A stretch of 64,000 nt of DNA, from positions 1 to 64,000 of the forward strand of contig NZ_BARF01000004.1 in NCBI RefSeq assembly GCF_000367365.1. Reading direction: 5' to 3'. Each line of letters opens with the position of its first letter. The first letter of the stretch is position 1. The position numbers and the translations under genes are program-made. The notes under the pieces were generated by a model that saw only the letters and a program-made list of their open reading frames with translations, searched no databases and had not been told where the DNA came from. The stretch comes from Streptomyces prunicolor NBRC 13075. Its GTDB lineage: Bacteria > Actinomycetota > Actinomycetes > Streptomycetales > Streptomycetaceae. Of the stretch, positions 1 to 8,853 are shown piece by piece.

Positions 1-202
1 ACTCACCGAGAAGTTCGAGGTCAGTGCCGAGAGCATTCGGCCGGAGGCCACCCTGGAGAGCCTCGATCTCGACTCGCTCGCGTTGGCCGAACTCGCCCTG
101 GCGCTCCAGGAGCAGTTGGGGGTTCCGGTTGCGGAGGAAGAGACCGCCAAGCAGAGCACCGTGGGTGGACTCGTCGCTGCGCTGAACGCCAAGCGGTCGT
201 GA
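1..202 (+). CDS. Acyl carrier protein, 3' part only
   Basis: The gene is cut by the left edge of the window; the last 66 codons are read from base 2 to the TGA at 200-202. The product carries the phosphopantetheine attachment motif LDLDSLALAEL, with the Ser codon at 74-76 followed by the usual hydrophobic helix. This is diagnostic for acyl/peptidyl carrier proteins, which hold the growing acyl chain as a thioester. The stop overlaps the start of the ketosynthase gene (TGATG), so the two are translationally coupled and the KS is its likely partner. A discrete ACP next to discrete KS genes suggests a type II fatty-acid-like or polyketide pathway. Whether the full protein is a single ACP or the end of a longer one cannot be seen. 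Confidence 0.85.
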   Translation, partial: LTEKFEVSAESIRPEATLESLDLDSLALAELALALQEQLGVPVAEEETAKQSTVGGLVAALNAKRS

Positions 203-1437
203 TGCGGGCACCCTGTACGCCCGTCTCCGTCACCGGCCTGGGGCTCATCACCCCGGCCGGGGTCGGCCGTGAGGCGACCTGGGAGGGGATGCTGAGCGGG
301 CGGTCCGCCGCCGCCACGGATCCCGAACTCAAGGGCTGCGCCGTGGACTTGTCGTGTCGTATCCCGCTCATGACCCCGGAGCAGGCGCGGATCGGCGGCG
401 GCAAGGCCTGGCGTATGGGCCGGTTCAGTCAGCTCGCCGTGCTCGCGGCGCGCGAGGCCGTCGCCGACGCCGGGCTGGATCCGGCCGGGTGGGACGGTGC
501 GCGGGTCGCCGTGGTGATCGGTTCGGGGCTGGCCGGAGCCGTGCACCTGGAGGACCAGACGATCCGCCATCACCAGGGCGGTCCCGAGCTGGTGTCGCCC
601 GCACTCGTGCCCATGCTGATCTCCAACATGGCCGCCGGGGAAGTGTCGTTGGACCTCGGCGCCCATGGCCCGTCCCTCGCGACCGAGACCGCGTGCGCGT
701 CCGGGGCCAGCGCCCTGGCCGTCGCACGGGGGCTGCTGTCTGCCGGGCTGTGCGACATCGCGGTGGCGGGCGGCGCGGAGGCGGCCGTCACCCCGGTCAT
801 CGCGTCCGGTTTCCAGCGGATGGGCGCGCTGTCGTCCCGGGTCGACGAACCCGGCGCCGCCTCACGGCCGTTCGCGGTGGACCGGGACGGGTTCGTGATC
901 TCCGAGGGGGCCGCGATCCTCGTCCTGGAACGGGAGGCGGACGCGCGCGCCCGTGGCCGGCGGCGGTACGCGCGGCTCGCGGGGGCCGGTCAGACCTCCG
1001 ACGCGTATCACCCGACCGCCCCTGCCCCGGGAGGAGTTCATGCCGAGGCCGCGCTGCGGTCGGCGCTCGCGGAGGCGGGGCTCGGCCCGGCCGACGTCGA
1101 TCACGTCAACGCGCACGGGACCTCGACCCCGCTCAACGACCTGACCGAGGCGGAGTTGATCGCTCGGGTGCTGCCGCACCGGCCAAGTGTCACCGCCGCC
1201 AAGGGAGTTCTCGGGCACAGTCTCGGCGCGGCCGGTGCGATCGAGGCGGCGCTCACCGCCCTCACCATCCATCGCTCCACCGTCCCGCCGATCGCCAACC
1301 TCACCCCGGACAACCTCCCCTTCGACCTGGACTGCGTCACGGGCGCACCCCGCGAGCAGCGCGTCCGGGCCGCCGCAAGCCACTCCTTCGGGTTCGGCGG
1401 ACACAACGTGGTGCTGCTCTTCACCACCGAGGACTGA
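202..1437 (+). CDS. Beta-ketoacyl-ACP synthase II-like (KS)
   Basis: Cytoplasmic condensing enzyme of 411 aa, expected to catalyse decarboxylative Claisen condensation on ACP-bound chains. The thiolase-fold triad is complete: Cys165 in ETACASG, His305 in NAHGTSTP and His339 in GVLGHSLGAAG. The glycine-rich C-terminal loop (FGFGGHN) is also present. Length fits FabF/KS-alpha. I chose the ATG at 202, which overlaps the ACP stop, rather than the GTG at 199. No chain-length-factor partner lies next to it, so it probably acts alone, like FabF or the KS of small aliphatic-chain pathways, unless a CLF lies left of the window. It sits in an operon-like run with the ACP, KAS III-like protein, ferredoxin fusion and P450. 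Family is certain; pathway is inferred. Confidence 0.9.
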   Translation: MRAPCTPVSVTGLGLITPAGVGREATWEGMLSGRSAAATDPELKGCAVDLSCRIPLMTPEQARIGGGKAWRMGRFSQLAVLAAREAVADAGLDPAGWDGARVAVVIGSGLAGAVHLEDQTIRHHQGGPELVSPALVPMLISNMAAGEVSLDLGAHGPSLATETACASGASALAVARGLLSAGLCDIAVAGGAEAAVTPVIASGFQRMGALSSRVDEPGAASRPFAVDRDGFVISEGAAILVLEREADARARGRRRYARLAGAGQTSDAYHPTAPAPGGVHAEAALRSALAEAGLGPADVDHVNAHGTSTPLNDLTEAELIARVLPHRPSVTAAKGVLGHSLGAAGAIEAALTALTIHRSTVPPIANLTPDNLPFDLDCVTGAPREQRVRAAASHSFGFGGHNVVLLFTTED

Positions 1438-1521: not shown

Positions 1522-2517
1522 ATGACCGTTCACAGCACCATCGTTCACGCCACCGTCCACATCCCCGAGGGACGCCAGAGCGTGGCCGCCGTGGAGGACC
1601 GGTTCCGGGCGGGCAGCCCCGCCGTGCCTTTGTCGCGCGGGGTGCTCCAGCGGATGTACGGGCTGGCCGAACGCACCGTGGCCGACGACCTGGAGCAGCC
1701 CTCCGACCTGGCCGCGCACGCGGCCCGGCGCCTGTTCGAGGACACCGGTACCGATCCGGGCGAGGTGGACCTGCTCCTCTACGCCGGGATCCTCGCCGAC
1801 ATGGAGGAGCCGGCCACCGCCCATGTCGTCGCCGACAAACTCGGCCTGGGCTGCCCGGTGTTCGACCTGAAGAACGCCTGCAACGGAGTCCTCAACGCGC
1901 TGGAGGTCGCCGACGCGTTCATCCGCAGCGGGCAGTACCGGCGGGTGCTGGTGACCACCGCCGAGGTCAGCACCCGGGAGAGCCGCTGGCAACTGGACGA
2001 CCCGGCCGACCTGTTGACCGCGCTGCCCAGTCTCAGCACCGGTGACATGGGCTCGGCGCTGCTGGTGGCGGCGGGGGAGCGGCCCGGCATCCTCGGCTCC
2101 CGGTTCTTCGCCAACTCCTGGGGCTGGCGCGCGGCAACCCTGCCCAACCCGTACGCGCAGCACCGCACACTCGGCCATCTCCGCATCGACTCCGCCCAGT
2201 TGGTGGGGTCGTTCGAGGGGCTGCCCGGCAAAGTGCGGGGCGCGATGCGGGAGTTGGGCGTCGAGGCCGGCGACCTCGACCTCGTCTGTGTGCACCAGCC
2301 CTCGGTGCCGTTCACCAAGGTCGTCTGCGACTGGGTGGGCGTGGACCCGGACCGCATCCTGGCCACCTTCCCCACCCACGGCAACGTGGCGACCAACACC
2401 ATCCCGCTCCAACTCGCCGCCGCCCTCGACAGCGGACGTCTCCAACGCGGGGACCTGGTCGGCATGTTCGGCTTCGCGAGCGGGGCGAGTGCGGGGGTGG
2501 TCGTGTGCCGCTGGTGA
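1522..2517 (+). CDS. KAS III (FabH)-like condensing enzyme
   Basis: Protein of 331 aa with the Cys-His-Asn triad of the KAS III branch: Cys120 in KNACNG, His258 in CVHQPS and Asn288 in THGNVATN. KAS III enzymes load or prime a starter acyl-CoA onto ACP; some family members in secondary metabolism are instead acyl transferases or ester/ether-forming enzymes. A strong ribosome-binding site (gaggaggg) precedes ATG 1522. The C-terminal FGFASGASAG loop is typical. It overlaps or abuts the following gene, depending on the start chosen there. With the ACP and KS upstream it would supply the priming step of a small type II assembly line. Substrate is unknown. Confidence 0.88.
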   Translation: MTVHSTIVHATVHIPEGRQSVAAVEDRFRAGSPAVPLSRGVLQRMYGLAERTVADDLEQPSDLAAHAARRLFEDTGTDPGEVDLLLYAGILADMEEPATAHVVADKLGLGCPVFDLKNACNGVLNALEVADAFIRSGQYRRVLVTTAEVSTRESRWQLDDPADLLTALPSLSTGDMGSALLVAAGERPGILGSRFFANSWGWRAATLPNPYAQHRTLGHLRIDSAQLVGSFEGLPGKVRGAMRELGVEAGDLDLVCVHQPSVPFTKVVCDWVGVDPDRILATFPTHGNVATNTIPLQLAAALDSGRLQRGDLVGMFGFASGASAGVVVCRW

Positions 2518-2591: not shown

Positions 2592-3377
2592 GTGACCACG
2601 ACCCGCACCCCCCACACCCCCCGCATCCCACCCCTCCCGCCCGCCCAATGGCCCCCGGTTCTCCGGTCGTTGCTCGCCGACTCCCGGCAGGACGGTCCCG
2701 GACGGGAGAACCTGTTCGGCACCCTCGCCCACCACCCCGTCCTCGCTCACGCCTGGCTCTCCCTCGCCCGGGTCCTCACCCACGAGGGCACCCTCGGCCA
2801 CCGCAGACGGGAGTTGATCGTCCTGCGCGTCGCGCACCGGCTCGACGCGCCCTACGTCCACGGTCGGCACCGCACCCCGGCCGCGGACGCGGGACTGACG
2901 GCCATGGAGATCGACGCGACGGCGGCCGACCTGGCCACCGCCACCCACCCCTGGCAGCCGGAGGACCGCGCGCTCCTGGAGGCGGCCGACCTGCTGGCCG
3001 TCAACTCCTCTGTCCCCGAGAAGCTTTGGGACCGCCTGGCCCACGCCCTCACCCCCGAGCAACTCGTCGAACTCCTGGTCCTGGCCGGCCAGACCGCCAC
3101 CATGTGCACCACGCTGAACACCCTCCGCACCCCCTCCGACAGTGCGGCCCGGCAGCCCTCGCTCACCGTGCTGCTGGACCGGGACCGCTGTTGCAGCGCG
3201 GGTCAGTGCGTCGGCGCCGCGCCCGAGGTGTTCGAGCAGGACGAGTCGGACGGTCGGGTCGCCCTGCTCGACCCGCACCCGGACGCGCGGTACGCCGACG
3301 AGGTGCGCTTCGCCGCCGACCTGTGCCCCGGCGGAGCCATCACGCTCCTCGACCCCGAGGAGACACCCCACCCATGA
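2592..3377 (+). CDS. Carboxymuconolactone-decarboxylase-type domain fused to a 3Fe-4S ferredoxin
   Basis: Two-domain protein of 261 aa from GTG 2592 (gaagg 11 nt upstream; an in-frame start at 2505 overlapping the KAS III gene is possible). The N-terminal two thirds read like the CMD/AhpD-like all-alpha family: LSLARVLTHEGTL, then REL-IVLRVAHRLDAPY-HGRH, then EQLVELLVLAGQTATMCTTLN. The usual CxxC of AhpD is absent. The C-terminal ~65 residues form a single-cluster bacterial ferredoxin of the type serving P450s: RCCSAGQCVGAAPEVF, then an acidic linker, then DLCPGGAITL, giving C-x5-C and a later CP. The stop overlaps the P450 start (ATGA), so this is almost certainly the electron donor to that P450. 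The fusion is unusual; the role of the CMD domain is unknown. Confidence 0.78.
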   Translation: MTTTRTPHTPRIPPLPPAQWPPVLRSLLADSRQDGPGRENLFGTLAHHPVLAHAWLSLARVLTHEGTLGHRRRELIVLRVAHRLDAPYVHGRHRTPAADAGLTAMEIDATAADLATATHPWQPEDRALLEAADLLAVNSSVPEKLWDRLAHALTPEQLVELLVLAGQTATMCTTLNTLRTPSDSAARQPSLTVLLDRDRCCSAGQCVGAAPEVFEQDESDGRVALLDPHPDARYADEVRFAADLCPGGAITLLDPEETPHP

Positions 3378-4567
3378 CCGTCACCACCAGCACCATTAAC
3401 CTCCCTTCCCCTTACGGCAGTTGCCCCTTCACTCCACCGCCCGCCTACACCGCCGCCGCCCGCGAGGCCGCCGTCATCCGTGCCGTGCTGCCGGACGGCA
3501 CCGCGTGCTGGCTGGTCACCGGGTACGACGAGGTGCGGGCGGTGCTGGCCGACGCCCGCTTCAGCGCGGACGCGCGCACGCCGGGGTTCCCGTTCCTCTC
3601 CGCCGGGCAGCGCGAACTGGCCACCGCCAAGCCGAGTTTCATCCGCATGGACGACCCCGAGCACGCCCGGCTGCGCCGGATGGTCACCAAGGACTTCCTG
3701 GTCAAGCGGATCGAGGAACTGCGCCCCGGCATCCAGGACATCGTGGACCGGGCCGTGGACCGCATGACCGAGGGCCGCAGCTCGGCCGACCTGGTGGCGG
3801 ACTTCGCGCTGCCGATCCCCTCGCTGGTCATCTGCCTGATGCTCGGGGTGCCGTACGAGGACCACGAGCTGTTCCAGTCGCTCAGCCGCACGCTCCTCGA
3901 CAACCGCACCACCCGACCGGAGGCGGAGCGGGCGCACGCCCAACTCATGGGCTATCTGGCGGAGTTGGCGGAGCGCAAACGGCAGCATCCCGGTGACGAC
4001 ATCCTCAGCAGGCTCGCCGCGCGCGAGGATCTGACCGACCAGGAGACCGCATCGCTCGGCTTCCTGCTGCTGGTCACCGGGCACGAGTCCACCGCGAACA
4101 TGACGGCCGTCAGCGTGCTCGCCCTGCTGCGCCGCCCCGACCAGGCCGAACTCCTGCGCCGGGACTCGGAGTTGGCGCGCGGTGCCGTGGACGAACTCCT
4201 GCGCCACCTCACGATCATCCACCTGGGCCTCGGCCGTGCGGCGACCGAGGCCGTGCGGGTGGGCGAGGTGACCGTCGAGGTCGGCGAGGGCGTGATCTGC
4301 ATGCTGTCCACGGCCAACCGCGACGAGCAACTCTTCGGCGCCGAGCCCGACTTGGACCTCACCCGGGACGCCCGCCGCCATGTCGCCTTCGGCTACGGCG
4401 TCCACCAGTGCCTGGGCCAGACCCTGGCCCGCGTGGAACTCCAGATCGTCCTCACCACGCTGCTGCGCCGCTTGCCCGCCCTGCGCCTCGTGGTCCCTGC
4501 GGACCAACTCACCTACAACCGGGACAACATCGTCTACGGCCTGCGGGAGCTTCCGGTGACCTGGTAG
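3374..4567 (+). CDS. Cytochrome P450
   Basis: Soluble bacterial class I P450 of 397 aa. It has the I-helix oxygen-activation motif (VTGHEST), the K-helix ExxR (ELLR), and the haem loop FGYGVHQCLGQ with Cys346 as thiolate ligand. The PERF region is weakly conserved (EPDLDLTRD). The start is ATG 3374, overlapping the preceding stop by 4 nt; the open frame extends far upstream but that extension is a shadow of other genes. Expected reaction is hydroxylation or epoxidation of a carrier-bound or free acyl product, using electrons from the ferredoxin domain encoded just upstream. It is the last gene of the cluster on this side and converges on the ANTAR gene with 13 bp between stops. Substrate unknown. 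Confidence 0.93.
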   Translation: MTVTTSTINLPSPYGSCPFTPPPAYTAAAREAAVIRAVLPDGTACWLVTGYDEVRAVLADARFSADARTPGFPFLSAGQRELATAKPSFIRMDDPEHARLRRMVTKDFLVKRIEELRPGIQDIVDRAVDRMTEGRSSADLVADFALPIPSLVICLMLGVPYEDHELFQSLSRTLLDNRTTRPEAERAHAQLMGYLAELAERKRQHPGDDILSRLAAREDLTDQETASLGFLLLVTGHESTANMTAVSVLALLRRPDQAELLRRDSELARGAVDELLRHLTIIHLGLGRAATEAVRVGEVTVEVGEGVICMLSTANRDEQLFGAEPDLDLTRDARRHVAFGYGVHQCLGQTLARVELQIVLTTLLRRLPALRLVVPADQLTYNRDNIVYGLRELPVTW

Positions 4568-4580
4568 CGGCGTGGCCGGT

Positions 4581-5312
4581 TCACTCCCCGGTCAGACCGG
4601 GATCGGCGTGCCCTTCGACCACCTCACGTGCCACGACGCTCACCAGCCGCTGACGTGAGCGCGCATGCGTGCGCAGGAGGGCGAAGGCGTCGTCCACGGT
4701 CATCTCCAGCCGAGCCGCGAGCACTCCCTTGGCCTGCTCGATGACGATGCGGCTGCTCAGGGCGAGTTCCAGCTGGGCCGCCAGGGTCCGGCTGCGGTCG
4801 GCCTCGCGCGCACGTTCCAGGGTGACGGCGGTGAAGTCCGCCATCGACTGGCCGAGCGTCAGTGTTCCCGGAGTGAGGACGCTCTGCCGGGCGTGGGAGA
4901 ACAGCACGAGCGCACCGCTGATCCCGGTGTGTCCGCGCAGGGGGAGGGCCACCACGCGGGCGTAGCCGAGACCGAGGGCTCTGGGGGCGTAGTGCGGCCA
5001 GCGCTGCCTGGCCGACCGGCCGTCGAGCGCCGCCTGGGTCGGGGGCGTGCGGGTACGGCGACAGTCGTTGCCGGGACCTTCGCGCCAGCCGACGGCGTCG
5101 TGTTCCAGCCGGGACACCGAAGGGTCGGAGCCCGCCACCTGCGCCGCCTCGTACTCGTCGGGGGCGAACACCACGGCCGCGGCTCCGACGCCGAGCAGGG
5201 ACGGGCTGCCGTGCGCGAGGACCTCAAGGGTTCCGGCAACGTCCGGGGGGCCGTCCGTCGTACAGCCGGCCAGGGCCACGAAGACGTCGGCCAGCCGCTG
5301 TTCGGGCGTCAT
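4581..5312 (-). CDS. GAF-ANTAR regulator (antiterminator-like)
   Basis: 243 aa. Residues ~20-170 form a GAF sensory domain (ending PLRGHTGISGALVLFS). The C-terminal ~60 residues form an ANTAR three-helix RNA-binding domain: LSSRIVIEQAKGVLAARL, then VDDAFALLRTHAR, then the final helix with LVSVVAREVV. ANTAR proteins bind paired hairpins in nascent RNA and prevent termination, usually after a signal reaches the sensor. The start has a good Shine-Dalgarno (gaggaagagg). It follows the second GAF-ANTAR gene by 12 bp and is the last gene of the CheB-CheR operon, so the two ANTAR proteins are likely outputs of that sensory module. The ligand of the GAF domain cannot be read from sequence. Confidence 0.85.
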   Translation of the reverse strand: MTPEQRLADVFVALAGCTTDGPPDVAGTLEVLAHGSPSLLGVGAAAVVFAPDEYEAAQVAGSDPSVSRLEHDAVGWREGPGNDCRRTRTPPTQAALDGRSARQRWPHYAPRALGLGYARVVALPLRGHTGISGALVLFSHARQSVLTPGTLTLGQSMADFTAVTLERAREADRSRTLAAQLELALSSRIVIEQAKGVLAARLEMTVDDAFALLRTHARSRQRLVSVVAREVVEGHADPGLTGE

Positions 5313-5324
5313 GGTGCCTCTTCC

Positions 5325-6179
5325 TCAGTCGAGTTCCGGGTCTCCGCGCAGGATCCGCAGGGAGACCGCGTCGAGAGACAGCTCCCCGGCGAACGCCCGG
5401 GCCTTGATGAGCGCCAGCGCGTCGTCGACGGGACAACCGAGCCGTGCGGAGAGCATGCCCGCCGCCTGCTGCACGGTCGCCCGGTGGTCGGTGCCGCCGT
5501 AGAGGTCCGGGTCGGCGTCGGGGCCGAGCAGCACGATACGGGTGAGGGCTTCGGCGACCGCCGCGAGATCGGCCGGTTCGGCGAGGACGGGCCGCGGGTC
5601 GAACACCGCCAGTGCGCCGATGCAACCGGCCGCCGTCCCCAGGGGAACGGCGGCCACGGAGGTGATGCCCAGGGACGCGAGGGCACGTCCGTAACCGGGC
5701 CAGCGTGTCTCGATCGCCGGGCCGGACGCGTGGACCGGGCGGTGTGCCGACGCTGCGTCCCGGGACGGCCCTTCGCCCAGGACGTACTCCAACTCCTGGG
5801 CGGCCCGGGACTGTTCGTCGGACACGGCGACCGCGAGCTGGTTCCGGCCGGAGTCGACCAGGGTGAGCGCCGCGCTGTCCGTACCGCACGCCTCCGCGAC
5901 ACCGGTCATGAACCTGGGCTCGGCCCCCTGCCCCGGAGTCCATTCCGCCGTGCGACGGGCGAATGCCTCCTGGAGGCTTGCCGAGGAGCGATGGCACGCG
6001 GCCGATCGCCGGTGCGTGGCCGCGATCCGCGCGTGGAACTCGCGTCCGGGCTTCGCCGCCAGAAGTTCGTGATGGTCGGCGGCGGCTTCGGCACGCTCCG
6101 CGCGCTCGAGCGCCCGGGCGGCACGGCCCAGTGCCACCGCTGCCAGACCGAGGGCTTCTTCGTGCCCCTGCGGGTTCAT
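5325..6179 (-). CDS. Coiled-coil GAF-ANTAR regulator
   Basis: 284 aa with three parts: an Ala/Glu/His-rich helical N-terminus (residues ~5-75, likely coiled coil), a GAF domain (~85-220, containing PLGTAAGCIGALAVF), and a C-terminal ANTAR domain (HRATVQQAAGMLSARLGC, then VDDALALIKARAFA). The ANTAR part is somewhat diverged (QQAAG in place of the common EQAKG) but keeps the spacing. It lies 22 bp downstream of the CheR-like gene and 12 bp upstream of the other ANTAR gene, so it belongs to the same operon. The ATG at 6179 has only a weak ribosome-binding site, consistent with coupling. Two tandem ANTAR regulators with different sensor parts may integrate two signals or form a heterodimer. Confidence 0.8.
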   Translation of the reverse strand: MNPQGHEEALGLAAVALGRAARALERAERAEAAADHHELLAAKPGREFHARIAATHRRSAACHRSSASLQEAFARRTAEWTPGQGAEPRFMTGVAEACGTDSAALTLVDSGRNQLAVAVSDEQSRAAQELEYVLGEGPSRDAASAHRPVHASGPAIETRWPGYGRALASLGITSVAAVPLGTAAGCIGALAVFDPRPVLAEPADLAAVAEALTRIVLLGPDADPDLYGGTDHRATVQQAAGMLSARLGCPVDDALALIKARAFAGELSLDAVSLRILRGDPELD

Positions 6180-6201: not shown

Positions 6202-8067
6202 TCAGTCGGAGTCGCGGCTTCGACCTTCCTCCATCAGCAGGACGACGCCTCCGTTGTGGCTGTCGAACGGCGAGCAGAACACATCGCAGGTAATGGACCG
6301 GCCGATGCGGCTCAGGGCCTCCAGCGTGATCGGCCCGGTGCGTTCACGGGTCTCCATGCAGGTGCGCACTATGGGCAGCAGCACATCGGTGGGCAGTCCG
6401 AAGTCCAGCGCGAAGAACTCCTCGTCGAGGACCTCGTCCATCCGCAGCCCCCACAGGTCGACCGCGCCCCGGTTCCAGCTCTTGACCTTCAGGTCGTGGT
6501 CCAGGACCACCACACCGGCCTCGATGCTGGTCAGGACGGCCGTCAGGAAGGCCCTGGCCTCGTTCAGGTCCTCGGTGCGGATGCGCATCTCGTCGTTCAT
6601 GGTCTCCAGTTCCTCGTTGCCGGACTGGAGTTCTTCGTTGGTGGTCTCCAACTCCTCGTTGGTCGACTGGAGTTCCTCGTTGGTGGTCTCCAGTTCCTCG
6701 ACGCTGGACTGGAGTTCTTCGTTGGTGGTCTCCAACTCCTCGTTGGTCGACTGGAGTTCCTCGTAGGCCGTCTCCAGATCCTCGCGCACCCGCTTGACCT
6801 CGGCCTTCAACTGCGTGGCCACGGTGACGTCGATGAAGGAGACGCTGGTGGCGACATGCAGGCTGTTGGGCCCGGTCAGGGGCTGGACGAGGATGTCGAA
6901 GTACTGGAGGTCCTCGCCCACCCTGCGCTCGACCCTGTTGACCCGGAGGGTCCGGCGCTCATGCGTGGACTGGTCGATCAGGGAGCGGAGTTCGACCGGC
7001 CGGTAGGAGATCTCCAGGTCCTGGAGGGGGCGGCCGATGTCGGTGGGGGTGAGGGAGAACTGGACCCTCGCCTGACTGTTGATCACCACGACGACTCCGT
7101 CGTCGTCGACGGCGATCGACGGGGTCGGGCCCGCGTCGAGGACCAGGTCGCGCAGTTGGCGGCTGCGCGCGACCGAGTGCGCCACGACGCCCACGCCGGC
7201 TCTGATCTTCGCCGGAGCCGGATGGTACGGCAGCCCGGCGTCGCCCGGGCGGCGCCGGAAGACCCGCTGCCGCATGTTGACCACGTCGAACCGGTCGGCG
7301 TCGTTCAGCAGCATCTCCGCCTTGCCGAGGAACAGGAAGGCGTTCTTGCGCAGCGCGAAGTGGAACCGGTCGATGATCTGGGTCTGGGCCTCGACGTTGA
7401 AGTACATCAGTGTGTTGCGGCAGATCAGCAGGTCGAGCCGGGAGATCGGGGCGTCGCGGGTGATGTCGTGCCGCCCGAAGATCACCCGGCGTCGCAGGTC
7501 GGGGCGGAAACCGAACACCGCGCCGTTCTGCTCGAAGTACTTCTCGCGCAGCTCCGCGGGGATGGCCTCCAGGGACCTCTCCGGGTACTGGCCCGACCGG
7601 GCCTGGCGCAACGCCTCCTCGTCGATGTCCGTGGCGTAGATCTTGACGCGGCGCAGACACTCCTCCAGGCCGAGCGCCTCCGCGAACATGACGGCCAGGG
7701 AGTACGCCTCCTCGCCGCTGGAACAGCCGGCGCTCCACACCCTGATCTCCTGGTCGGGTGCGACGTCCGCGATCAGTTCTGGGACCACTTCCCGCTGCAG
7801 GAAGGTCCAGGCGTCCGGATCGCGGAAGAACGACGTGACGTTGATCAGGATCGTGTTGAAGAGGGCGTCGAACTCGCCCGCGCTGGTTTCGAGGAGATCC
7901 GGGTATTCGGTGTAGGTGTGGATGCCCACGTCGTTCATCCGCTTGTTGATGCGCCGGCTCAGGGTGGAGCGTTTGTAGCCCGTGAAGTCGAAGCCGCGGG
8001 CGTCCCTGATGAAGACGAGCAGCTCCTCCAGTGCCTCGTCGGTGGCGGTGTTCTGGGATTCGCTCAT
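6202..8067 (-). CDS. CheR methyltransferase-coiled coil-PAS protein
   Basis: 621 aa from ATG 8067, which overlaps the CheB stop (TGATG). The N-terminal ~280 residues are CheR, a SAM-dependent glutamate methyltransferase: FFRDPDAW, WSAGCSSGEEAYSLAM-like motif I, YATDIDEEAL, and the catalytic-domain signature LDLLICRNTLMYF. A PAS-like segment follows (residues ~320-430). Then comes a long coiled coil of 14-residue units (NEELQSTNEELETT type) and a second PAS domain (VLTSIEAGVVVLDHDLKVKSWN). This architecture is known from CheB/CheR-PAS signalling proteins outside classical flagellar chemotaxis. No methyl-accepting protein is encoded nearby, so the methylation substrate is unknown. Confidence 0.88.
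   Translation of the reverse strand: MSESQNTATDEALEELLVFIRDARGFDFTGYKRSTLSRRINKRMNDVGIHTYTEYPDLLETSAGEFDALFNTILINVTSFFRDPDAWTFLQREVVPELIADVAPDQEIRVWSAGCSSGEEAYSLAVMFAEALGLEECLRRVKIYATDIDEEALRQARSGQYPERSLEAIPAELREKYFEQNGAVFGFRPDLRRRVIFGRHDITRDAPISRLDLLICRNTLMYFNVEAQTQIIDRFHFALRKNAFLFLGKAEMLLNDADRFDVVNMRQRVFRRRPGDAGLPYHPAPAKIRAGVGVVAHSVARSRQLRDLVLDAGPTPSIAVDDDGVVVVINSQARVQFSLTPTDIGRPLQDLEISYRPVELRSLIDQSTHERRTLRVNRVERRVGEDLQYFDILVQPLTGPNSLHVATSVSFIDVTVATQLKAEVKRVREDLETAYEELQSTNEELETTNEELQSSVEELETTNEELQSTNEELETTNEELQSGNEELETMNDEMRIRTEDLNEARAFLTAVLTSIEAGVVVLDHDLKVKSWNRGAVDLWGLRMDEVLDEEFFALDFGLPTDVLLPIVRTCMETRERTGPITLEALSRIGRSITCDVFCSPFDSHNGGVVLLMEEGRSRDSD
6598..6768 (-). repeat. 42-bp repeat encoding 14-residue coiled-coil units
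   Basis: About four imperfect head-to-tail copies of a 42-bp unit encode NEELQSTNEELETT-like heptad pairs of the CheR-PAS linker. Such repeats are a recurrent property of this protein class and probably give a rigid signalling helix whose length can change by slippage. Confidence 0.8.
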
Positions 8068-8666
8068 CACTGCCTCGCGGCCCCGACGAGTCCGCGGACG
8101 ACCGTGGCGATCTCCGCGAGGGGAAGGACGTAGTCCGCCGCTCCCGTGTCCACCGCCGCCTGGGGCATTCCCTTGAACTCCGCCGACAGCGGGTCCTCGA
8201 CGATCACCGTGCCCCCGCGCGACTTGACGACGTCGACCCCCGTCGCGCCGTCGCTGCCGGTCCCGGTGAGCACGCAGGCGATCGCCCGCGGTCCGTAGGC
8301 CCCGGCGACCGATTCGAAGAGGAGGTCGGCGGAGGGCCGTACGAAGTGGACGAGCTTGGTGTCGGACAGTGTCATCACGCCGTCGGAGTCGATGAGGAGA
8401 TGCCGGTCGGGCGGGGCGATGTACACGGTGCCGGGCAGCGCGCGCTCCTCGGCCTCCGCGAGCTTGACCGGCATGTCGGTACGGCGGGAGAGGACGTCGG
8501 CGATCACCGTCCGGTGCCGTGGGTCGAGGTGCTGGACCACCAGGACCGGTACCGGGAGGTCGGGGTCCAGCATTCCGAGCAGCACGATCAGTCCGTGGAT
8601 GCCGCCCGCGGATGACGCGACAGCGACGATCGCGTATTGGTCCTCGTGGGACTGGTCGGCTGTCAC
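8067..8666 (-). CDS. CheB-type protein-glutamate methylesterase (no receiver domain)
   Basis: 199 aa, only the catalytic domain of CheB. It has Ser19 in ASSAGG, His46 in VVQHLD and Asp139 in TGTGSDGATG, which match the Ser-His-Asp triad of the family, plus the conserved YIAPPDRHLL strand. It would hydrolyse gamma-glutamyl methyl esters or deamidate glutamines, opposing the CheR encoded immediately downstream. No phosphoacceptor receiver domain is present, so it is not controlled by a CheA-type kinase in the classical way. It is the first gene of the operon; the upstream ~340 bp contain two direct copies of aggcgtgtgcat and the palindrome gcatatatgc (8776-8785), possible regulator sites. Confidence 0.87.
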   Translation of the reverse strand: MTADQSHEDQYAIVAVASSAGGIHGLIVLLGMLDPDLPVPVLVVQHLDPRHRTVIADVLSRRTDMPVKLAEAEERALPGTVYIAPPDRHLLIDSDGVMTLSDTKLVHFVRPSADLLFESVAGAYGPRAIACVLTGTGSDGATGVDVVKSRGGTVIVEDPLSAEFKGMPQAAVDTGAADYVLPLAEIATVVRGLVGAARQ

Positions 8667-8853
8667 GCGACGAGCCTAGCGGAGGCGCCACCAGGTGGCG
8701 GGGCCGTGAGGGGGTCGGCGGACGGACGGGAGAAGGGTTCCCGTCTCCTTTCTTTCAGCCGCCTCAGAGGCGTGTGCATATATGCGAGAAAGGCGTGTGC
8801 ATTCAACGTCAAGACCTCATCCCGAATATCACTCCAACGGGGCATCCTGCCCT

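Follow-up and report, generated by a model that had tools for sequence, protein, structure and literature searches.

The 3' end of an acyl carrier protein (ACP) gene, two ketosynthase (KS) genes, a gene that joins a domain of the carboxymuconolactone decarboxylase (CMD)/AhpD fold to a ferredoxin, and a cytochrome P450 gene follow one another at the beginning of the window, by which we mean the whole 64,000-nucleotide stretch analysed (Streptomyces prunicolor NBRC 13075, contig NZ_BARF01000004.1). The window opens inside the ACP gene because the contig starts there. The features are as follows:

1..196 (+): 3' part of an ACP gene with an LDSL phosphopantetheine site (tblastn 95% to the ACP of the related locus L005, which has the PF00550 match)
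199..1437 (+): FabF-type ketosynthase (KSII) with Cys-His-His motifs (PF00109/PF02801, FabF-type models)
1522..2517 (+): second FabH/OleA-type ketosynthase (KS3B) with Cys, His and Asn motifs (PF08541/PF08545; PDB relatives 4ryb, 3fk5 and 3row)
2592..3377 (+): CMD-ferredoxin fusion gene of 261 residues (open frame, recurring at 13 distinct loci)
2592..3131 (+): CMD/AhpD-fold domain, residues 1-180, with E74, Y88 and H93 kept and A86 and V89 at the CxxC positions (PF02627, model and fold match, alignment with 29 stand-alone relatives)
3132..3161 (+): variable linker, residues 181-190 (alignment; the intact ferredoxin-less relatives L025, L027 and L028 end about there)
3162..3350 (+): single-cluster ferredoxin domain, C200-x2-A203-x2-C206...C245-P, of the [3Fe-4S] sequence type (Fer4_15/13/19; motif class of PMC6237146)
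3357..3362 (+): GAGGAG, Shine-Dalgarno-like, within the last codons of the fusion and 11 bases before the P450 ATG (read from the sequence)
3374..4567 (+): CYP105-like cytochrome P450 with GHEST and heme FGYGVHQCLG motifs (PF00067; best PDB matches 2z36, 5y1i and 8swl)

The ketosynthase operon

The start of the ACP gene and the first ketosynthase are seen only in relatives and not on the contig of the window, and relatives with longer flanks have the full order FabH-type KS (KS3A), ACP, FabF-type KS, KS3B, CMD-ferredoxin and P450. KS3A has Cys and His motifs and its best PDB relative is 2x3e, while those of KS3B are the FabH entry 4ryb and the 3-oxoacyl synthase III entries 3fk5 and 3row, the last two of which we take to be OleA. 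The stretch from the first KS to the P450 contains no reductase, cyclase or thioesterase gene. Judged by its genes the operon should condense acyl units on the ACP, and we found no product assigned to it.

Some related gene arrangements deserve mention. In Streptomyces sp. P3 (L012, 6034-11919) the matches to the ACP, the FabF-type KS and KS3B are fragmented, which suggests indels, and those to the CMD-ferredoxin and P450 parts are unbroken. A possible cousin of the operon is present in G223 (L112, 4297-5750), where a FabF-type KS 66% like that of the operon lies beside an ACP (51%) and a few kb from a KS3B-like gene (38%), with no CMD or P450 match. KS3B-like genes of another actinobacterial family stand behind a KS-matching frame of about 2,560 residues in L109 (2094-13556) and L110 (1839-12400), and this frame is, by its length and start, like a type I polyketide synthase (PKS). 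By eye, an AMP-ligase-like gene comes after the KS3B-like gene in both loci, and in L109 then an SDR-like gene, which makes an OleA/OleC/OleD-like cassette linked to a PKS possible. Downstream of the operon, on the reverse strand of the window, there are an ANTAR protein that matches GAF weakly (4581-5312), a 284-residue protein matched by no NCBIfam model (5325-6179), and frames resembling chemotaxis-type methyltransferase/methylesterase that contain a run of ELETTNEELQS-like repeats, seen in the sequence only (6202-8691).

The fusion gene and its recurrence

The fusion is read as one uninterrupted frame from a GTG at 2592 to a TGA at 3375-3377, and the Pfam matches to CMD in its front part and to Fer4 families at its end bear out the preliminary description of this DNA, which had proposed a CMD-like domain fused to a P450 ferredoxin and had suggested looking for it in other genomes. 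In a related-locus search of genome contigs the fusion was one open frame at 10 of 11 loci, and a profile search of the genus, with a profile built from 11 rows and a threshold of E <= 1e-40, gave the same open fusion in two more genomes (L026 and L030). The profile matched 9 of 392 genomes, five of which carry the fusion (the window's own, G068, G183, G284 and G312) and four the CMD only (G012, G074, G083 and G257). A draw of 150 relatives had five with a match, all within the same nine genomes. With duplicates counted once (L063 with L005, L032 and L016 with L007, L031 and L019 with L013, which were taken as the same genomes), the total is 17 loci, namely 13 with the fusion (the window, L005-L014, L026 and L030) and four without the ferredoxin (L025, L027, L028 and L029). 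L006 and L011 start at the fusion, with the upstream genes outside the sequence, and L014 is truncated within KSII. Separate, split genes for the CMD and the ferredoxin were found at none of these 17 loci. A sequencing frameshift, which the preliminary description had considered, or a missed stop codon, either of them a known source of false fusions in GC-rich drafts, is ruled out as the origin of the fusion by the open frame at 13 distinct loci from separate assemblies.

The fusion is rare and was found in a small group of Streptomyces. In a profile search of the class, 129 of 394 genomes matched at E <= 1e-15, and among the matches listed only the window's own extended through the ferredoxin to position 253, the rest reaching position 208 of 253 at most; none of the 29 loci retrieved with this search had a ferredoxin motif. 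On plasmids, none of 57 matching records covers 80% of the query in one place.

Both parts of the protein look constrained when the window is compared with L005, L010 and L026, with dN/dS values by a simple Nei-Gojobori calculation of 0.15-0.29 for the CMD and 0.14-0.52 for the ferredoxin. The same calculation against the distant L013 and L030 gives 0.41-0.43 for the CMD and, from few sites, 0.84 and 0.41 for the ferredoxin. The linker between the two varies in length among the fused copies. A conserved internal start of the ferredoxin at Val193 is ruled out, as L010 and L030, among six loci compared, have a GTA there, and no Shine-Dalgarno-like stretch was seen by eye ahead of this codon in any of the six.

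The ferredoxin, the P450 and P450s outside the operon

Fer4_15 (41 bits), Fer4_13 and Fer4_19 all match above their cut-offs between residues 189 and 253. The full motif, C200-CS-A203-GQ-C206 ... C245-P246, agrees with CXX(A/G)XXC(X)nCP, which in the available part of PMC6237146 is the common motif of P450-associated [3Fe-4S] ferredoxins.

The P450 gene follows the fusion at all 13 fused loci. In the window its ATG at 3374 overlaps the stop codon of the fusion (ATGA), as had been noted from the start, and the overlap is found at 11 of the 13, with the GAGGAG in place at nine. The best PDB matches of the P450 are 2z36 (compactin hydroxylase), 5y1i and CYP105Q4 (8swl); under the naming rule, membership of CYP105 requires an identity of 40% or more to named members. 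The fused ferredoxin probably reduces this adjacent P450.

We compared 29 P450 loci outside the operon, 28 from a family search (L064-L091) and L015 from the genome contigs, L015 and L090 being identical. The P450s of L064-L091 are 58-67% like that of the operon and are its closest relatives found outside it. A ferredoxin gene lies upstream of the P450 in 26 of the 29, downstream in two (L072 and L082), and none was found in one (L081); within the flanks, all 28 ferredoxins found are on the same strand as the P450. That P450 ferredoxins normally are stand-alone proteins, as the preliminary description stated, thus holds at 28 of these 29 loci. In 27 of the 28 family-search loci the ferredoxin is 47-61% like the fused one, and many of the stand-alone genes have their start codon at the point where, in the fused copies, the frame simply continues out of the linker. 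The flanks of the 28 family-search P450s, about 1.5 kb long, contain no CMD match, and five ferredoxin-P450 pairs with wide flanks have neither a KS nor a CMD match. It is therefore most likely that the operon acquired ferredoxin and P450 together, with the CMD belonging to the ketosynthase operon.

The CMD domain

The CMD match to PF02627 covers residues 50-116 with 28.8 bits against a gathering cut-off of 23, and no NCBIfam model scores above its cut-off for the fusion protein. An AlphaFold2 model of the whole fusion, made from 11 alignment rows, has a pLDDT of 65.2, with the ferredoxin part below 50 and residues 1-60 at low confidence, and the CMD core (residues 71-160) is predicted confidently, with block pLDDT values of 84-95. 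The model aligns to structures of the AhpD fold, best to 2gmy (Z 15.8, 2.4 A over 119 residues, residues 59-179) and 7xw1 (Z 15.6), the AhpD-like structures ranging from Z 11.6 to 15.8; the gamma-CMD entries 4g9q and 2q0t score lower (Z 11.2 and 10.3), which does not in itself decide the function. The Pfam score and the all-helical AhpD-like fold of the model place the domain in the CMD family, so that this part of the preliminary description stands, including the structure prediction it had proposed as a check. A gamma-carboxymuconolactone decarboxylase proper would act on gamma-carboxymuconolactone, and the other genes of the operon (KS, ACP, KS, KS and P450) do not look like the beta-ketoadipate pathway.

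The hairpin of the presumed active site, E74-x11-A86-x2-V89-x3-H93, has the same spacing as Glu36, Cys48, Cys51 and His55 of PA0269, which are its active-site residues in the available part of PMC3141380, where AhpD combines a Cys-X-X-Cys with a Glu/His proton relay. We counted residues in an alignment of 45 CMD rows, 16 from operons (the frameshifted L029 was left out) and 29 stand-alone relatives. E74 and H93 are invariant in all 45 and Y88 is kept in 28 of the 29 relatives. The CxxC, already reported missing from the window, is absent from all 16 operon copies and from all 29 relatives, so the Glu/His pair of AhpD is present and its dithiol is gone. Position 86 is Ala in 11 operon copies, Gly in three, Ser in one and Cys in one (L030), and a lone Cys is found there in 17 of the 29 relatives; at position 89 all 16 operon copies have Val, and 22 of the 29 relatives have Glu. 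Stand-alone actinobacterial relatives are 32.7-39.8% identical, and on this alignment the operon CMD is a branch of the ordinary CxxC-less actinobacterial CMD proteins.

P450s can leak peroxide, and it had been suggested that the CMD part scavenges it and so guards the P450 against its own uncoupling products. The likeness of the fold to AhpD structures, the Cys86 of L030, where single-thiol chemistry is conceivable, and a C172 that is invariant in the operon would speak for such a role, but with no CxxC at the AhpD spacing in any operon copy or relative, a Val at position 89 throughout the operon copies and a C172 that lies outside this motif, chemistry of the AhpD type is very improbable.

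Six residues (H64, V89, R92, T110, Q167 and C172) are found in all 16 operon copies and in between none and two of the 29 stand-alone relatives, H64, T110 and C172 being exclusive to the operon. As they are alike in fused and ferredoxin-less copies, the CMD of the operon has become specialised for a task that does not depend on the ferredoxin. H64, R92 and C172 could also be interface residues and not residues of the active site.

Operons without the ferredoxin

Four operons (L025, L027, L028 and the frameshifted L029) have the order KS3A, ACP, KSII, KS3B, CMD and P450, which is the same as in the fused operons, and no ferredoxin match within the 18-19 kb examined. In L025, L027 and L028 the CMD stops within the linker (...TPSG-stop) and the P450 likely starts with an ATG 10-11 bases further on; an ATGA noted at these three loci is not the P450 start. 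In L029 (G257) the CMD and the P450 are each split between frames, and this locus is either decayed or badly sequenced. Each of the four genomes has 5-6 Fer4_15 sites elsewhere; in G012 the ferredoxin nearest to the missing one is 53% like it, and G074 has none that reaches E 1e-5. Presumably a different ferredoxin serves the P450 in these genomes.

In a tree of 45 P450 rows the P450s of the operon group as a single clade (100/99) within the outside P450s, whose group of 29 rows ('separateFd') includes L081, L072, L082 and the identical pair L015 and L090. The ferredoxin-less clade is nested among the fused copies, and the starred branches force two changes. It also lies inside the fused copies in the tree of the FabF-type KS, with branches of 92/90 and weaker, and in a P450 tree of 27 of the 45 rows the deciding branch reaches only 89/92. 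The outgroups of KS3B are too distant to be of use. All trees leave out L029, the KS trees also L006, L011 and L012, and the KSII tree the partial L014. Taken by itself the nesting would mean that the fusion came first and that the ferredoxin was lost later. AU tests, however, do not reject trees in which all fused copies group together (p 0.117 for the P450, 0.075 for KSII and 0.16 for KS3B), so that a loss in one branch together with a fusion in the other also fits. Given the outgroup, a loss of the ferredoxin in the ferredoxin-less clade, in either order, is the simpler reading.

The tether to the ferredoxin is in any case dispensable in the ferredoxin-less clade. Related operons in which the ferredoxin is fused or absent, together with outside P450s that have a stand-alone ferredoxin, make a natural comparison in which the effect of tethering on the efficiency of a P450 can be tested.

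Function of the fused protein

The preliminary description also considered that the CMD part positions the ferredoxin. As a non-catalytic dock, it would keep the ferredoxin attached to the P450 or to the ketosynthase complex. A dock would account for a CMD fused to a ferredoxin, and the conserved residues specific to the operon need not be catalytic. We still regard it as unlikely, since the four operons without the ferredoxin, one of them frameshifted, retain the CMD and the P450, so that the CMD must do more than hold the ferredoxin, and since E74 and H93 are kept in every row of the alignment.

Harder to dismiss, even if we consider it doubtful, is that a neutral read-through joined two neighbouring genes, with each part working as it would on its own and the tether having no effect. 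The linker is variable in length, the ferredoxin is absent in one clade, and the genes would be adjacent anyway. There is also a precedent in the gibberellin operon of Paraburkholderia mimosarum, where, according to the available part of PMC6278637, an in-frame fusion of a ferredoxin and a short-chain dehydrogenase (Fd-SDR) supports CYP114 and is active both fused and split. Against neutrality, no split arrangement was found at the 17 loci, a weak indication that selection maintains the fusion.

The explanation that we prefer, with a probability of roughly 0.55, is that the CMD is a non-redox enzyme of the pathway that is tethered to the electron donor of the operon's P450. Having the Glu/His pair and lacking the AhpD dithiol, it would carry out acid-base chemistry; in an operon with no reductase, cyclase or thioesterase gene from its first KS to its P450, the natural guess for such a protein is a decarboxylation, an isomerisation or a cyclisation (ring closure) of a beta-keto intermediate that the ketosynthases of the operon produce. 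The ferredoxin, of the [3Fe-4S] type, would feed electrons to the CYP105-like P450 encoded next, which may act before or after the CMD step. The fusion, the ATGA overlap and the internal ribosome site may together ensure that the donor is made in step with the P450 and in matched amounts, and the tether would keep the donor near the enzyme that handles the neighbouring intermediate. We infer that the CMD is catalytic, that the ferredoxin reduces the P450 and that the tether matters, and the reaction assigned to the CMD is guessed from its fold, from the name of its family and from the operon around it. The earlier suggestion that the CMD binds the substrate would fit best when widened to an action on a pathway intermediate. 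That CMD and P450 are kept without the ferredoxin in four operons suggests that the two halves of the protein do separate jobs, and as the Fd-SDR fusion works fused and split (PMC6278637, available part), the tether may be helpful without being essential.

We propose only tentatively, as the odds are rather against it, that the CMD is a new type of non-redox enzyme (a decarboxylase, isomerase or cyclase) acting on the KS-derived intermediate of a minimal six-gene pathway, where one two-headed protein would both prepare the substrate and power the P450, a metabolon encoded by the operon. The usual electron donors of P450s are separate proteins and often interchangeable. CMD proteins without the CxxC are poorly understood, and here one of them has a conserved pathway context in a small ketosynthase operon of Streptomyces.

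Comparison with known systems

AhpD and PA0269-like proteins have the fold and the spacing of the active site in common with the operon CMD, and the Cys-X-X-Cys is theirs only. The stand-alone actinobacterial CMDs without CxxC are of the same fold family and have the same E74/Y88/H93 pattern, but most of them have Glu at position 89, and they are without the H64, T110 and C172 of the operon. In the CYP105-type pairs of Streptomycetaceae the ferredoxin is a gene of its own, whereas in the operon it is fused to the CMD. Among PDB sequences, the ferredoxin part is matched best by a chain (6mcw/7snm), presumably the CYP51-ferredoxin of Methylococcus, which likewise has a fused single-cluster ferredoxin, although it is there joined to the P450 itself.

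The closest parallel in design is the Fd-SDR protein, which in the available part of PMC6278637 likewise joins a P450 ferredoxin, in one frame, to an enzyme of the pathway that its operon encodes, a likeness that holds if the CMD is such an enzyme and the ferredoxin serves the adjacent P450; it also has an unfused relative. It differs in that the partner is a short-chain dehydrogenase, in another pathway and in other bacteria, while here a CMD-fold protein precedes the ferredoxin. A CMD-ferredoxin fusion was described by none of the matches listed in a search of the titles and abstract openings of open-licence papers. The fusion of a ferredoxin with a pathway enzyme is as such known already, and what would be new is the CMD as the fusion partner of a P450 ferredoxin.
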